From Coemansia sp. RSA 487 (taxonomy: Eukaryota > Kickxellomycota > Kickxellomycetes > Kickxellales > Kickxellaceae): DNA of 64,000 nt. The position numbers and the translations under genes were made by a program. The stretch lies in the NCBI GenBank assembly GCA_027577595.1, contig JANBRJ010000008.1, forward strand, positions 244,804-308,803, given 5' to 3'. This document shows positions 11,806 through 22,425 of the stretch, piece after piece (position 1 is the first letter of the stretch; each line of letters starts with the position of its first letter). The notes beneath the pieces are model-generated. The model did not search any database. It saw nothing but the letters and a program-made list of their open reading frames with translations, and had not been told where the DNA came from.

Positions 11806-12644
11806 ATGTCTATGATTTCCATTGCAGCTTCGGCTGTTACGATAGCAATGTTTATAAGTCAGCTCTCGATATTACAGCAACTCAAACACGCACAGCGGCT
11901 CAAGCAAACGGTGCCGATATTACAATTCCTCGTGTCCTTTCTAAGGTAATTTATTAGCCAAAAAGAAGTCGATTCGAAGCTATAAATGTTTCCATTTTCT
12001 GAATGTTGGATTCTAATATGGACTCTGTTTTCAAATGTAGCTCGGTTATGTGGCTTAAATACGGACTTATAAAGCACGACCATACGATAACGTTTGTCAA
12101 TGGTACAGGTACGCTGATATCGTTCTATATCCTGTTCCTGTTTTGGAAGTACAGTTTGAGTCGGACGCGTGTGGAGATCAAGGTGCTTGTGACAGCAGTA
12201 CTGGGGGTCGTGGTAGTAAGCTACGTGGACCAGTCGAAGGACCCGGTGGCCATTGAGATTTTCAGTCTTCTTTGCTGCTTGATGTCGCTCCTGTTTCTTG
12301 CATCTCCGCTGAGCCAGATAGGCAGTGTCATTAGACTTCGGGATGCATCAGTATTGCTTCCGTCTGTAGCCGTGTTGGCCTTTTTTAATAACGTACTGTG
12401 GGCTATTTACGGTCATATCCACGAAGATCCATACATGGTTCTGCCCAACGGCATTGGCGCCTTCTTTTGCTCCCTCCAGCTGGCGCTTATTGCTTTCTAT
12501 GGAAGGGCTGCGGCTACCGGTCGGTTGCCAGTGGCTACCGATATACTGCCGGATTCGCCGTTGGACGACGCTACAGGTGCAAGCAGTGGCGTATCGGTTT
12601 CAGCGGAAACCGTACATATGACAGAGATCACCCACGACAACTAG
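11806..12644 (+). CDS. SWEET-family sugar transporter (MtN3/saliva), one intron
   Basis: Bidirectional sugar facilitator with two MtN3 triple-helix repeats joined by a linker helix, seven membrane segments in all. Exon 1 is 11806-11945 and exon 2 is 12041-12644, coding 247 residues; a 95-base intron lies between. Splicing regenerates the family motif across the junction: LVSFL then SSVMWLKYGL, which neither exon has alone. Repeat 2 contains LPSVAVLAFFNNVLWAIYG and LPNGIGAFFCSLQLAL, including the conserved Asn of the sugar pore. The C-terminal ~40 residues are polar and cytosolic. Starting at 11806 gives the first helix (ISIAASAVTIAMFISQL). Alternatively the first ATG-like start inside exon 2 would lose helix 1 and part of helix 2, which is unlikely. 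Confidence 0.9.
11946..12040 (+). other. Spliceosomal intron in the SWEET gene
   Basis: A GTAATT donor at 11946, a TTCTAAT-like branch point about 30 bases before the end, and a TGTAG acceptor at 12036-12040. It is phase 2 and splits a Ser codon. It contains in-frame stops and breaks the SWEET reading frame unless removed. Confidence 0.88.
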
Positions 12645-17360: not shown

Positions 17361-18013
17361 TTCAAAAAGAAAAAGAGGAAAAAGTAGAAGCTAAACTTGT
17401 GACTATGGAAAGTACTTCAAGACAAAGAAGCAAAAAATATGTTTTGTAAAGTTGTCAATTTCTTTTAGACAACATGTGCTTTTAGACACCAGCGCTTTAA
17501 CCGAGCCTCATCAGTGCATAATTCGTTGATCAGTTTTTAGATTTGGTCGCACCATGCAATATACATGTTGCCAAGGCAAGTGAAAAAAAAACCAATGTCA
17601 GTGGCGCGCAATCGACTACTGTAAACGATGGCCATGAGTTTCTACATTTCCATTTCATTTAAATCACTCCCCAACGGAAGCAAGTCGGTACCCGCAAAAT
17701 AAACGCCAATATGCTTTGCAAAATATGATCGTGTGGTGCGGCGATTCTTCGGATATTGCGGCGACCGAAAGAAAAATGGCCATAAATACACGCATTTCTC
17801 GGTTCAAACACCTACGTATCCATCTACAAATACCATAGGATCTACGAATGCTTACTAATGCACTTTGTATTCTGTCAAAGCTCTTTATTGGTATAAAAGT
17901 AGATGGAAGGTAGGCGGCTCCAACAAAAGCTTGAGATTTTTACATTAGTCTGCTATCAGCAAGCACATGCTTACTTATCCCACGAACAACAAACAATCTG
18001 CAATTTAAGGGAA
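17361..18013 (+). promoter_or_regulatory. Promoter of AKR paralog 1 with two CGG-N3-CCG sites and TATA box
   Basis: The palindrome CGG-TAC-CCG lies at 17686-17694 and CGG-CGA-CCG at 17759-17767; CGG-N3-CCG spacing is a type bound by Zn2Cys6 dimers. The first site sits in a longer block (ACGGAAGCAAGTCGGT) repeated in the AKR2 promoter. A TATAAAA box is at 17892-17898. The region is shared with the divergent F-box-like gene. Confidence 0.55.
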
Positions 18014-19030
18014 ATGGCATCCATTCCTACTGTTGAAATCGGCGTTCCTGGAGATAAGGTGCGTGTGCCGCGTATCGGCCTTGGAACTATGGGCATGTCT
18101 GCCGTTTTTGGTCCGACCAACGACGACGAATCCATTAAGGTTCTGGAGCGTGCAATCGACATTGGATGCACTTTTTGGAACACTGCCTGCGCATATGGTA
18201 TAGGCCACAACGAAAGGCTTCTTTCGCGTGTCCTGAAAGACCGGAGAGACAAAGTATTTGTGTCCACAAAGTTTGGAATCATGCTACGCGAGCCCGAAGA
18301 CGATCCACCAAAGTTTTTTGCCCATTATATGATTGGGCACAACGGAAAGCGCGACTACGTGCGCGAGTGCATAAACAAGACACTTGAGCGCTTGGGCACC
18401 GACTATGTTGATCTGTACATCATCGCTCGTATCGATCGTAGTACCCCGCTTGAAGAAACTATTGGTGCACTGGGTGAGCTTGTCAAGGAAGGCAAGATTC
18501 GCTATATCGGAATATCTGAGTGCACTGCCGATGATCTGCGTCGCGCCTACAAGGTTCATCCGATTGCTGCAGCTGAAGTCGAGTACAGCGTTTGGTCGCG
18601 TGATATCGAAGCCGATGGTTTGCTTGACGCTTGCCGCGATCTCGGGGTAACCATTATTGCCTATTCGCCACTCGGTCATGGGTTCCTTACTGGTCGGGTT
18701 CGCAACACGGATGAACTCGATAAAGATGACGTGCGTAGCAACCTCGATCGTCTTCAGCCTGAGCACTTTGATGCCAACCTTAGGTTTGTTGATTCGTTTG
18801 GTCGCTTGGCCAAGAAACACAACGCAACCGCTGGACAGCTTGCCCTTGCATGGCTGTTAAGACAGGAGGAGAATCTTATTGCAATTCCTGGCACCAAAAA
18901 GATAAAGTACTTGGAAGAAAATTTCGGCGCTGGACAAATCGAGTTGAGCGATGCTGAGCTCAAGGAGCTTAGGAATGTTGTCAACAACGCAGATATCCAG
19001 GGACACCGTCTCTGGAAAGAGCATAGTTAA
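18014..19030 (+). CDS. Aldo/keto reductase paralog 1, degenerate catalytic tetrad
   Basis: A 338-residue (beta/alpha)8 NAD(P)H oxidoreductase fold of the AKR8/AKR13 type (fungal YakC, plant ATB2-like). Recognisable are GLGTMGMS, VDLYIIARID, ECTADDLRRAYKVHP, YSPLGHGFLTGR and the cofactor loop AIPGTKKIKYLEENFGA. Two of four catalytic residues are changed: Asp to Asn in the FWNTACAYG segment (normally DTADxYG), and the His of the usual YYxHR to Ala in YIIARID. Tyr and Lys (VSTKFG) remain. The TATA box at 17892 makes the ATG at 18014 a better start than the in-frame one at 17903, which lies 11 bases past the TATA box. It is the first of three tandem same-strand copies. It may be catalytically weak, altered in chemistry, or a cofactor sensor like Kv-beta. 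Confidence 0.9.
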   Translation: MASIPTVEIGVPGDKVRVPRIGLGTMGMSAVFGPTNDDESIKVLERAIDIGCTFWNTACAYGIGHNERLLSRVLKDRRDKVFVSTKFGIMLREPEDDPPKFFAHYMIGHNGKRDYVRECINKTLERLGTDYVDLYIIARIDRSTPLEETIGALGELVKEGKIRYIGISECTADDLRRAYKVHPIAAAEVEYSVWSRDIEADGLLDACRDLGVTIIAYSPLGHGFLTGRVRNTDELDKDDVRSNLDRLQPEHFDANLRFVDSFGRLAKKHNATAGQLALAWLLRQEENLIAIPGTKKIKYLEENFGAGQIELSDAELKELRNVVNNADIQGHRLWKEHS

Positions 19031-20006
19031 GCTGTGCTTTCGTTATTTCTTGGTTTTTTAGCGATTGGTTTGCTTTGTTTGTTTTGACAGAACGATTTTA
19101 AAGCTTTACCCGAGGGGTTTTTTTAGTTCTCAATTGTGATGTGAGCTGATCTTTATGCTTGTTGATTTGTGTAATTATGCATATCAGCTCATGTATGAAT
19201 TTTTTAATAGCGCTTTCCCGCTGAGCGTTCTTTAATATTTCCCAAAAGTTTATCAAGAAAACGAGATGTGAGAAGCTAGGGGGAAAACATGCAAATGATT
19301 TGGCAAAGAGGCTTTACAAGTGTATCTATTTAGCATGTCTGTAAATCCGTTTAGTTCCGGAGCGGTCTTCTTTCGTTGCCAAAGCGGAATCGAGCCTGTA
19401 CCCGAAAAGGCTAACGTCAGCAGTGCATTTTTACAAAATATAATAGTGTAATGTGGCACGTATTCGGCCTGCAAACGGGTTTTCGCCGCAAGATTGGGAT
19501 ATTCTATTGCTTGATAACGCAGTGTTGGTGAAAGACAAGGGTGGATTTCGCAGAGAATACTTGTTTATAATATCCGATTTACACTATTGCTTTTGATTCA
19601 AGTTAGGTTTTTCTTTTACCGACGGGAAGCGAGTCGGTTTCCGAGATTAAATACCAAACGCTTATTTTTGCAAGATTATTGGTGCAACATGGCAAATCCT
19701 TGGTACGCACGCGACTGCGGCCACGTATAATAAGCTATAAAGGATTGTTGTAGATGTAGATAAATGGGTGTATTTATCAACATTTATGGAATTGTAGGTG
19801 CTTACAAATTCACTAAACTCAGTGCAGCATCGAGCACTTTCAAATTCTACCTTGGAGGCTTTGCCAAGCTATCTGTTAGCATAAAAGTGCTTGAGAATAA
19901 GCAGCTCACGGCATTGGAGCCTCTTCATTCGACACCTTACAACACAACGAACAGCAAATTTTACTATCTATCCAGCGAATATCAAACACTCTGCAAAAGC
20001 AACATA
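19031..20006 (+). promoter_or_regulatory. Intergenic region with promoter of AKR paralog 2
   Basis: Contains the block CGGGAAGCGAGTCGGT followed by CCG, giving a CGG-TTT-CCG palindrome at 19635-19643, matching the AKR1 promoter block in sequence and distance from the start. A TATAAAG box is at 19736-19742. The ~265 bases between TATA box and ATG are long, so a leader intron or an upstream start at 19764 are possible. No other gene is seen. Confidence 0.5.
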
Positions 20007-21011
20007 ATGGAAGCCATTCCTACAATTGAAATCGGTGTCCCTGGCGACAAGGTGCGTGTGCCACGTATTGGCCTTGGAACCATGGGTATGTCCACTTCGT
20101 TTGGCCCGACAAACGATGAAGAATCCGTCAAAGTGCTGGAGCGCTCGATAGAGCTTGGGTGTACCTTCTGGGACACTGCTGGTTTCTACGGCTTGGGCCA
20201 CAACGAACAGCTTCTTTCGCGTGTTCTGAAAAACAACAGGAGCAAAGTATTCGTGGCTACCAAATTCGGGCTGAATTTGCGTGAGCCCGAGGATGACCCG
20301 CCCAAAGTGTTTGCCCACTACATCACAGGGTTCAGCGGAAAACGTGAATTCGTGCGCGAGTGCTTGCACAAATCGCTTGAGCGTCTGGATACCGACTATG
20401 TCGACATGTATATGATTGGCCGTATCGACCGTGACACTCCTCTTGAAGAGACTGTTGGCGCGATGGCTGAGCTTGTGAAGGAAGGAAAGGTCCGCTACCT
20501 TGCGCTGTCCGAATGCACTGCTGATGATCTGCGCCGCGCCTACAAGGTCCATCCGATAGCTGCGGTGGAGGTCGAGTACAGCGCGTGGTCGCTGGAGATC
20601 GAAACTGACGGCTTGCTTGATGCTTGCCGCGAGCTAGGAGTAACTGTTATTGCATACTCGCCGCTTGGTCGCGGATTCCTTACTGGTCGTGTTCGCAGCC
20701 TCGATGTCCTTCACGGGGAGGATATACGCACCATTCTCGACCGCTTCCAGCCAGAAAACATGGGTGCAAACCTCAAACTCGTCGATAAGTTTGAGCTCTT
20801 GGCGGCGAGACACAATGCAACCGCTGGACAGCTTGCCCTCGCATGGCTGCTGAGGCAAGAGGAGAACCTTATTGCAATCCCTGGCACCAAAAAGATAAAG
20901 TACTTGGAAGAGAACCTCGGTGCTGCACAAGTAAAGCTGAGCGATGCTGAGCTCAAGGAACTTAGGGATGTTGTTGACAACGCCGATATCCAGGGGAGGC
21001 GTATCAGATAG
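20007..21011 (+). CDS. Aldo/keto reductase paralog 2
   Basis: A 334-residue copy of the AKR8/AKR13-type fold, with GLGTMGMSTSFG, FWDTAGFYG, VATKFG, YSPLGRGFLTGR and AIPGTKKIKYLEENLGA. Catalytic Asp, Tyr and Lys are kept, but the catalytic His is Gly (YMIGRID). The start is set at the ATG where homology with the paralogs begins (MEAIPTIEIG). The open frame extends 81 codons further upstream to an ATG at 19764; that stretch has no counterpart in the other copies. Usual substrates of the family are aldehydes such as pyridoxal, but with the His missing I do not predict one. Confidence 0.9.
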   Translation: MEAIPTIEIGVPGDKVRVPRIGLGTMGMSTSFGPTNDEESVKVLERSIELGCTFWDTAGFYGLGHNEQLLSRVLKNNRSKVFVATKFGLNLREPEDDPPKVFAHYITGFSGKREFVRECLHKSLERLDTDYVDMYMIGRIDRDTPLEETVGAMAELVKEGKVRYLALSECTADDLRRAYKVHPIAAVEVEYSAWSLEIETDGLLDACRELGVTVIAYSPLGRGFLTGRVRSLDVLHGEDIRTILDRFQPENMGANLKLVDKFELLAARHNATAGQLALAWLLRQEENLIAIPGTKKIKYLEENLGAAQVKLSDAELKELRDVVDNADIQGRRIR

Positions 21012-21402
21012 TTATAGCTGATATGTTGGGCTTTTGGCCTTTTGGCCTTTCCATCAATTCTCGTTTTTCTAGATAGAAACTCCAGAGCAAATGTTGCATT
21101 TTTGTGCGTAATCTGTGCTCTTTCCATTGAGCACTTTACCTTTTTTTTCAAACAAATTCGCTATTGTTTTCTATAGCCACTTTATTCTCTGGACGCAGCA
21201 CATTCAGCATGTTGACACATTACATTAGCCGGAAAATCTTTTGGCGATCAGCATTTTGCCTGCCAAGACCCTCGCTTTTATAACTTGAGAAATGACATGA
21301 GTATTGAAAATTGGCCTTTCTTTTCCAGCACCCTCCCTTTTTGCATCGCCAGCATCACCATCATCTTGTTAAACTTCTCTATATCTAAACGCTAACAAAT
21401 AA
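21012..21402. other. Spacer between AKR paralogs 2 and 3
   Basis: The promoter of the third copy. A TATAACTT-like box lies near 21277. The CGG-N3-CCG block found before copies 1 and 2 is not present, suggesting different control. Confidence 0.45.
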
Positions 21403-22425
21403 ATGATGGCTACTGGCCCTACTGTTGAAATCGGCGTTCCTGGCGACAAGGTGCGCGTGCCGCGAATTGGCCTTGGAACCATGGGCATGTCTGCTGCGTT
21501 TGGCCCCACCAACGACGAGCAATCTCTCAAGGTCTTGGAGCGTGCCATCGACATTGGATGCACATTCTGGGATACCGCCGACGTATATGGCATAGGCCAT
21601 AACGAGGAGCTCCTTTCGCGCATTCTAAAAGACCAGAGAGAAAAAGTATTTGTGTCCACAAAGTTCGGAGTCGTGCTGCGTGCGCCTGAAGAATCCCCTC
21701 CCAAGGTTTTCTCCCATTACATTGTTGGCTATAACGGAAAACGCGAGTATGTCTGCGAGAGCTTGCACAAATCGCTTGAGCGTCTAGGTGTCGACTATGT
21801 TGATCTGTACATCATTGGTCGTATTGACCACAGTACCCCGCTAGAAGAGACAGTTGGTGCCATGGCCGAGCTCGTCAAGGAAGGCAAGATTCGCTATATT
21901 GGCATATCTGAATGTACACCCGAGGAACTGCGCCGTGCTTACAAGGTCCATCCGATAGCTGCGGTGGAGGTCGAGTACAGCGCGTGGACGCTGGATATCG
22001 AAACAAACGGCTTGCTTGACGCTTGTCGTGAGCTTGGAGTGACTGTTATCGCATACTCCCCGCTTGGCCGTGGATTCCTTACTGGTCGGGTTCGAAGCAT
22101 GGGTGAATTGGACAAGGAGGACATACGCAACAATCTCGATCGCTTCCAGCCGCAAAACATCGACACCAACCTCAGGTTTGTTGACGCTCTGGAAAGCATG
22201 GCCAGAAAACACAACGCAACCGCTGGACAGCTTGCTCTTGCTTGGCTATTGGAACAAGAGAAGAATCTTATTGTCATTCCTGGCACCAAGAAGATAAAAT
22301 ACCTTGAAGAGAACGTTGGCGCTGGGCAAATCAAGCTGAGCGATGCCGAGCTCAACGAGCTTAGAGGCCTCATTGACCAGGCAAACATTCAGGGTAGCCG
22401 CTTCAGGAAGCAAAAGTCATCATAG
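21403..22425 (+). CDS. Aldo/keto reductase paralog 3
   Basis: A 340-residue third tandem copy. It has the most typical AKR N-terminal half (FWDTADVYGIGHNEELL, VSTKFG), so Asp, Tyr and Lys are present. The histidine position is again Gly (YIIGRID), with a His four residues further (RIDHS) that is not at the tetrad position. The cofactor end VIPGTKKIKYLEENVGA is intact. It starts with two ATGs in a row (MMATGP). The sequence is strongly similar to copies 1 and 2, consistent with tandem duplication followed by divergence. Confidence 0.92.
   Translation: MMATGPTVEIGVPGDKVRVPRIGLGTMGMSAAFGPTNDEQSLKVLERAIDIGCTFWDTADVYGIGHNEELLSRILKDQREKVFVSTKFGVVLRAPEESPPKVFSHYIVGYNGKREYVCESLHKSLERLGVDYVDLYIIGRIDHSTPLEETVGAMAELVKEGKIRYIGISECTPEELRRAYKVHPIAAVEVEYSAWTLDIETNGLLDACRELGVTVIAYSPLGRGFLTGRVRSMGELDKEDIRNNLDRFQPQNIDTNLRFVDALESMARKHNATAGQLALAWLLEQEKNLIVIPGTKKIKYLEENVGAGQIKLSDAELNELRGLIDQANIQGSRFRKQKSS

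Follow-up and report, generated by a model that had tools for sequence, protein, structure and literature searches.

Aldo-keto reductases (AKRs) are known with and without the His of the catalytic Asp-Tyr-Lys-His tetrad. Perakine reductase of Rauvolfia (PDB 3uyi, 3v0s and 3v0u), which we take to be AKR13D1, possesses the His. In PdxI, the pyridoxal reductase of Escherichia coli (PDB 8te8, 8tez and 8tf1, the last titled as its complex with both NADPH and pyridoxal), the column occupied by His in the related AKR13B2 is Arg, and the tetrad Asp is kept, as is a conserved Gln that is considered below. The site is occupied by Pro in DRR, the reticuline epimerase domain, and by Glu in AKR1D1 (PMC8524200). 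In the pyridoxal reductase (PLR) proteins of fungi, the strings AR, SE, E and YSPLG are conserved (PMC4700284), of which AR, as worded in the text and not as seen in an alignment, fits Ala-Arg in place of the His-Arg. Functional AKRs lacking the His are thus already known, and pyridoxal reductases are among them.

Here, a tandem array of three AKR genes (copies 1, 2 and 3) from the fungus Coemansia sp. RSA 487 is compared with these enzymes. The array is located in the window, i.e. the whole stretch of 64,000 nucleotides that was analysed (contig JANBRJ010000008.1, positions 244,804 to 308,803), and all three copies lack the tetrad His. Judged from sequence, the array can be read as an AKR13-type tandem expansion in which the active site was remodelled ahead of the duplications and which encodes working NADP(H) oxidoreductases with vitamin B6 as the leading candidate substrate, a composite reading that we regard as evenly poised. 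That the copies are active, substrate-specialised oxidoreductases is probable as long as the substrate is left unnamed, while B6 (pyridoxal or pyridoxine) as the substrate, which is suggested by analogy, is the weakest step and stays tentative.

Absence of the tetrad histidine

The copies were compared with 87 rows, composed of 80 bacterial loci, which are the best 80 of 182 confirmed relatives found by two patterns not touching the tetrad, and seven readable paralogs from the same genome. His occupies the tetrad column in every row (80/80 and 7/7, thus 87/87) as well as in perakine reductase, whereas copy 1 has Ala and copies 2 and 3 have Gly; the 17 second tblastn pieces within the 80 loci, which were excluded from the count, all carry His as well. 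Such a distribution is far from what chance would give. This bears out the first-pass annotation, which had noticed three tandem AKR paralogs without the catalytic His and had given the segment letters as they stand, IIARID, MIGRID and IIGRID in copies 1, 2 and 3, respectively.

The bacterial loci all possess Asp, Tyr, Lys and His (80/80). None of the copies has this complete tetrad, as the His is absent in 3/3 and copy 1 is additionally without the Asp, which is replaced by Asn56 and is present in 87/87 comparison rows. Alignment of the tetrad column with an AKR13 enzyme, by which the annotation had proposed to check its claim, gave the same result: in the alignment with perakine reductase, Asp56, Tyr61 and Lys86 of copy 3 face Asp, Tyr and Lys, while Gly138 faces His, and the tetrad columns of copy 2 are the same as those of copy 3. 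Another His at the tetrad spot, concealed by misalignment, was rejected, as the perakine reductase alignment contains no gap within residues 107-200.

Table 1. Coordinates of the array, its altered codons and related features (window positions unless a contig, C, is given)
Feature	Position	Strand	Remark
Copy 1	18014-19030	+	AKR, 338 aa; tetrad Asn56-Tyr61-Lys86-Ala138
Copy 2	20007-21011	+	AKR, 334 aa; tetrad Asp-Tyr-Lys-Gly138
Copy 3	21406-22425	+	AKR, 339 aa; tetrad Asp-Tyr-Lys-Gly138; further ATG at 21403
Codon 138, copy 1	18425-18427	+	Ala replacing tetrad His
Codon 138, copy 2	20418-20420	+	Gly replacing tetrad His
Codon 138, copy 3	21817-21819	+	Gly replacing tetrad His
Codon 56, copy 1	18179-18181	+	Asn replacing tetrad Asp
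Codon 188, copy 1	18575-18577	+	Glu replacing conserved Gln
Codon 188, copy 2	20568-20570	+	same change
Codon 188, copy 3	21967-21969	+	same change
Codon 104, copy 1	18323-18325	+	new His, beta3-alpha3 loop
Codon 104, copy 2	20316-20318	+	same
Codon 104, copy 3	21715-21717	+	same
Upstream module	17675-17752	+	before copy 1
Related upstream module	19385-19467		before copy 2
Related upstream module	19624 to about 19715		before copy 2
SWEET-type sugar transporter	12003-12644		MtN3_slv
AKR relative L008	C25:177857-178852		His-bearing
AKR relative L013	C25:74265-75194		His-bearing
Divergent PDX1 (L102-L105)	C53:26008-26637, C16:12903-13523, C25:14261-14887, C25:15760-16485, C37:65900-66511		

Family relationship and history of the array

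The three copies are stop-free and apparently intronless reading frames; copy 3 shares 76% identity with copy 1 and likewise with copy 2. The Pfam domain Aldo_ket_red is matched by 3/3 copies with 254-271 bits against a cut-off of 24, the Pfam scan found no other domain in them, and none of the NCBIfam profiles exceeded its cut-off for copies 1-3. The model of copy 1 is a confidently predicted AKR fold, a (beta/alpha)8 barrel with a mean pLDDT of 92.6.

Perakine reductase is the best PDB sequence match of copy 3 (E 2e-72; 132 of 312 aligned residues, 42%, identical) and also ranks first in the Foldseek comparison with the copy 1 model. In a separate comparison, the identity of this model was 43% over 276 residues to 3v0s and 40% over 294 to 3uyi. 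Measured for copies 1 and 3, identity to an AKR13 member consequently reaches the at least 40% by which an AKR family is delimited (PMC8524200), although the assignment is borderline with the 37-38% given by Foldseek. Perakine reductase shares Asp, Tyr and Lys with copies 2 and 3, but its His, Gln and Pro are replaced in the array by Ala/Gly, Glu and Arg, respectively. The relationship to PdxI is more distant, with 27% identity to copy 3 and a score of 122-128 bits for the copies against a cut-off of 280 in the PdxI subfamily profile PRK10376, which PdxI itself matches with 558.5 bits; PdxI also differs in having Arg where the copies have a small residue.

In the genome scanned (17.8 Mb, 184 contigs), 16 matches to PF00248 were listed in a profile search of the contigs, while a search with copy 3 gave 12 rows, of which nine are long matches (55-100% identity), two belong to a single relative that is split in halves, and the last is a distantly related AKR (28%). 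The His-bearing paralogs are 54-65% identical to copy 3, and comprise five intact (L001, L002, L003, L005 and L009) and two broken members. Of the broken ones, L008 shows an in-frame stop, and in L013 a stretch is missing, so that it matches as two halves. Elsewhere, relatives were found on 1926 plasmid records, every one below 60% identity, and none among 38 pattern matches on viral contigs.

The maximum-likelihood tree was built from 37 rows, 27 of the 80 bacterial loci after thinning by similarity and ten from the genome itself (the three copies, the five intact paralogs and two pieces). The copies form a single clade (100/100) with copies 1 and 2 as sisters (99/88), which is located inside the own-genome family (100/99), the other seven rows of which are His-bearing. 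The fork placing the His-bearing L003 outside the rest has a support of 91/88 and is not starred; the order of the other own-genome branches is open. As the bacterial rows and the other own-genome rows carry His, its loss is derived, and the simplest course would be a single loss in the ancestor of the three copies, followed by an exchange of Ala and Gly.

The copies are under purifying selection. Among them, YN00 gave dN/dS values of 0.182, 0.154 and 0.120 at a dS of 0.90-1.22 and NG86 values of 0.117-0.124 (YN00 values are available for 6/28 pairs, and NG86 has no usable value for several distant pairs). A dN/dS of 0.12-0.18 at a dS of about 1 indicates that the copies have long been kept as proteins without the His, and this good preservation makes it probable that they still function as enzymes, with an altered active site similar to one already known from the vitamin B6 enzymes of yeast. 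The earlier statement that the copies are not decaying thus holds, being backed by the stop-free frames, the YN00 values and the fold of the copy 1 model.

Further changes around the active site

Among the 87 rows, 96 columns are at least 90% conserved, 12 of which are off consensus in all three copies (columns 32, 36, 113, 132, 136, 138, 146, 188, 215, 245, 285 and 290), with columns 36, 136, 215, 285 and 290 varying in the own-genome paralogs too. Tyr32, Pro113 and His138 are invariant in the comparison rows (87/87), while the copies have Phe32, Arg113 and Ala/Gly138, and column 188, Gln in 79/80 bacterial rows, is Glu in 3/3 copies. Tyr61 and Lys86 are kept, and so is the Arg-Ile-Asp that follows position 138. 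From their position in the sequence, we infer that residues 32, 113 and 136 line the pocket, and we read these changes as a pocket that has been remade, not just as the loss of one residue. Since several columns near the active site are altered together, the changed chemistry envisaged by the first-pass annotation is plausible, the activity itself being a prediction.

Besides these replacements, the copies have a new His. Of the 12 positions with His in any copy, four (65, 104, 182 and 269) are His throughout the array; His at 65, 182 and 269 also occurs in relatives (14/87, 85/87 and 9/87, respectively), while His104 is present in 3/3 copies and in 0/87 comparison rows, 27 of which have any residue there. 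In the copy 1 model, His104 falls between beta3 and alpha3, and the beta3-alpha3 loop is the Loop A that caps the substrate-binding cleft of related enzymes (PMC9427786).

Proposed chemistry and substrate

The proposed mechanism starts from a reductase of the AKR13 type that was expanded in tandem in this lineage, its active site presumably having been rebuilt before the copies diverged. Hydride would be transferred between NADP(H) and the substrate in the usual way, with Tyr61 as the putative acid/base, which Lys86 would tune in all copies and Asp56 additionally in copies 2 and 3, while the small residue at 138 would open the pocket. Either the substrate itself or His104 might take over from the lost His in holding the carbonyl and in proton transfer. 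In the case of pyridoxal or pyridoxine, the 3-hydroxyl of the substrate could assist its own aldehyde, as in the AKR8 enzymes, which seem to share the replacements. In AKRs the Tyr acts via His in reduction and via Lys and Asp in oxidation (PMC8524200). As the Tyr-His relay is lost and the Lys/Asp relay is kept in copies 2 and 3, copy 1 being left with Tyr and Lys only, the copies would be oxidoreductases, with an activity perhaps biased to oxidation.

With respect to the substrate, copy 1 has all four strings of the fungal PLR proteins, while copies 2 and 3 have GR. AKR8 comprises fungal pyridoxal reductases (Schizosaccharomyces pombe plr1, Saccharomyces cerevisiae YPR127W and Rhizoctonia solani PLR), and the AR given as conserved in PLR proteins (PMC4700284) equals the Ala-Arg of copy 1. 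The annotation's premise that AKR8 relatives carry the tetrad His is, going by this text, probably wrong. A provisional YPR127W sequence, treated as a lead only, agrees with copy 1 in the residues N, Y, K, A, R, S, E and E at the columns compared; copies 2 and 3 differ from both in their Gly and in the retained Asp. A genome search with this provisional AKR8 sequence gave nothing above 36% identity, and no separate AKR8 gene was seen. These AKR8-like residues, together with the lack of an AKR8-like gene above 36% identity to the provisional query, make pyridoxal or pyridoxine the leading guess. B6 genes are present in the genome, namely two canonical PDX1 genes (L017 and L018) and two matches to Phos_pyr_kin, a domain of pyridoxal and HMP kinases.

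AKR8 orthology as the cause of the missing His was rejected, as the copies fall among the His-bearing paralogs of the genome and show no greater similarity to the provisional AKR8 sequence than these do. One clade in an otherwise His-bearing family looks like parallel change and not like AKR8 ancestry. A still more specific proposal, that an AKR13-type lineage has independently rebuilt an AKR8 site and gained the capping-loop His104 as a relocated proton donor, possibly replacing a missing AKR8/PNP oxidase step in B6 salvage, is rather unlikely.

Several observations weigh against working enzymes with B6 as the substrate. SE is present in 80/80 His-bearing relatives and YSPLG is common there, which leaves only AR and the Glu to point to AKR8. 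The copies are about 30% identical to the provisional YPR127W sequence, which is the same as for other rows, and the best match of this sequence in the genome is a His-bearing paralog on contig 25 and not an array copy. The legend of figure 4 in PMC4700284 mentions a tetrad as being conserved in R. solani PLR. The codeinone reductase mutants D51N, K86M and H119F have lost oxidation and retain traces of reduction (PMC8524200), and such nearly dead mutants indicate that losing these residues can simply kill an enzyme, with copy 1 lacking two of the four. A PNP oxidase was not found in the genome by PNP_phzG_C or E. coli PdxH, though introns or assembly gaps could hide one and a single match to PNPOx_N lies just above the cut-off (32.9 vs 28.1 bits), and seven other window proteins that were scanned comprise no B6 enzyme. 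If a PNP oxidase is missing, pyridoxal reduction might lack its usual next step, and pyridoxine oxidation would fit better.

With His-less copies beside His-bearing paralogs, the genome offers a natural experiment on the role of the tetrad His. Should copy 1 be active on Tyr and Lys alone, the textbook tetrad would shrink to two residues plus the right substrate, and should the site truly match AKR8 by parallel change, N/D-Y-K-A/G with Glu for Gln could predict the substrate in unannotated AKRs. Among the matches listed in a search of open-licence literature, no title or abstract concerned an array of this kind or AKR13 enzymes lacking the His.

Alternative explanations

The copies might alternatively be double-bond (C=C or C=N) reductases, in which the space left by the His would let the substrate bind deeper and receive the hydride at a neighbouring carbon or iminium. 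AKR1D1 (Glu) and DRR (Pro), natural AKRs that lack the His like the copies, perform such chemistry, the AKR1C9 replacements H117E or H117A are said to interconvert steroid reductase specificities, and steric relief has been proposed (PMC8524200); the residue at the site is small in 3/3 copies. The two enzymes belong, however, to other AKR families and differ in the replacing residue, DRR has lost the Lys too (PMC8524200) while the copies keep it, and the seven scanned window proteins, a minority of the window genes, gave no sign of a biosynthetic cluster. We consider double-bond reduction unlikely.

Less likely again are NADPH-binding pseudoenzymes or sensors, which would bind the cofactor and turn over slowly or not at all. 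The tetrad losses (two of four residues in copy 1, one of four in copies 2 and 3) and the fate of the codeinone reductase mutants would agree with such a function. On the other hand, PdxI (Arg), DRR (Pro) and AKR1D1 (Glu) work without the His, which leaves the sensor explanation weak. The AKR6 Kv-beta subunits are 26% identical, and the copies score 78-90 bits in the Kv_beta profile TIGR01293 with a cut-off of 365.4; as the His-bearing L001 scores much the same (87.6), this likeness is merely superfamily-wide, and no additional Pfam domain accompanies it. For the nucleotide sensor suggested by the first-pass annotation, the missing residues are consequently the only argument.

A slightly lower probability is assigned to ordinary carbonyl reductases with unchanged chemistry, in which the capping-loop His104 replaces His138. 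The restriction of His104 to the copies would agree with this, as would a beta3-alpha3 loop that is more constrained, with 13/24 invariant columns among the copies vs 2/24 among the five intact His-bearing paralogs. The copies are, however, more alike everywhere (223/328 vs 126/328 invariant columns), and the loop is less certain in the copy 1 model (pLDDT 79-83). Decay with loss of function, for which the lost tetrad residues and the broken relatives in the genome, such as the one with the in-frame stop, could be taken to speak, is hardly credible given the stop-free frames, the low dN/dS and the confident fold.

Upstream module and genomic setting

Related modules are present upstream, a single one ahead of copy 1 and a pair ahead of copy 2, and none was seen before copy 3. 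With 0 mismatches, its core CGG...CCG is found only at the three array places in the whole genome, while two mismatches permit seven further genome matches vs two control matches. As a marker of a B6 regulon the module was therefore dismissed; it is perhaps a private regulatory element of the array.

Beyond the two canonical PDX1 genes, the genome contains five PDX1 (SOR_SNZ) paralogs that have diverged to 33-45% identity with the canonical L017. In all five, Cys replaces the canonical Asp (IMDV to FCV/FCA) and the Lys of AKVRIGH is changed to Arg or Gln, both positions being those of catalytic residues. The five are possibly a pseudoenzyme family of the PDX1.2 type. Two of the divergent PDX1 loci are located on contig 25, as are six of the seven His-bearing AKR relatives. 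In the window itself, one protein matches the fungal Zn2-Cys6 and Fungal_trans domains, in keeping with a fungal genome, and another gene encodes a sugar transporter of the SWEET type, in a fungus.

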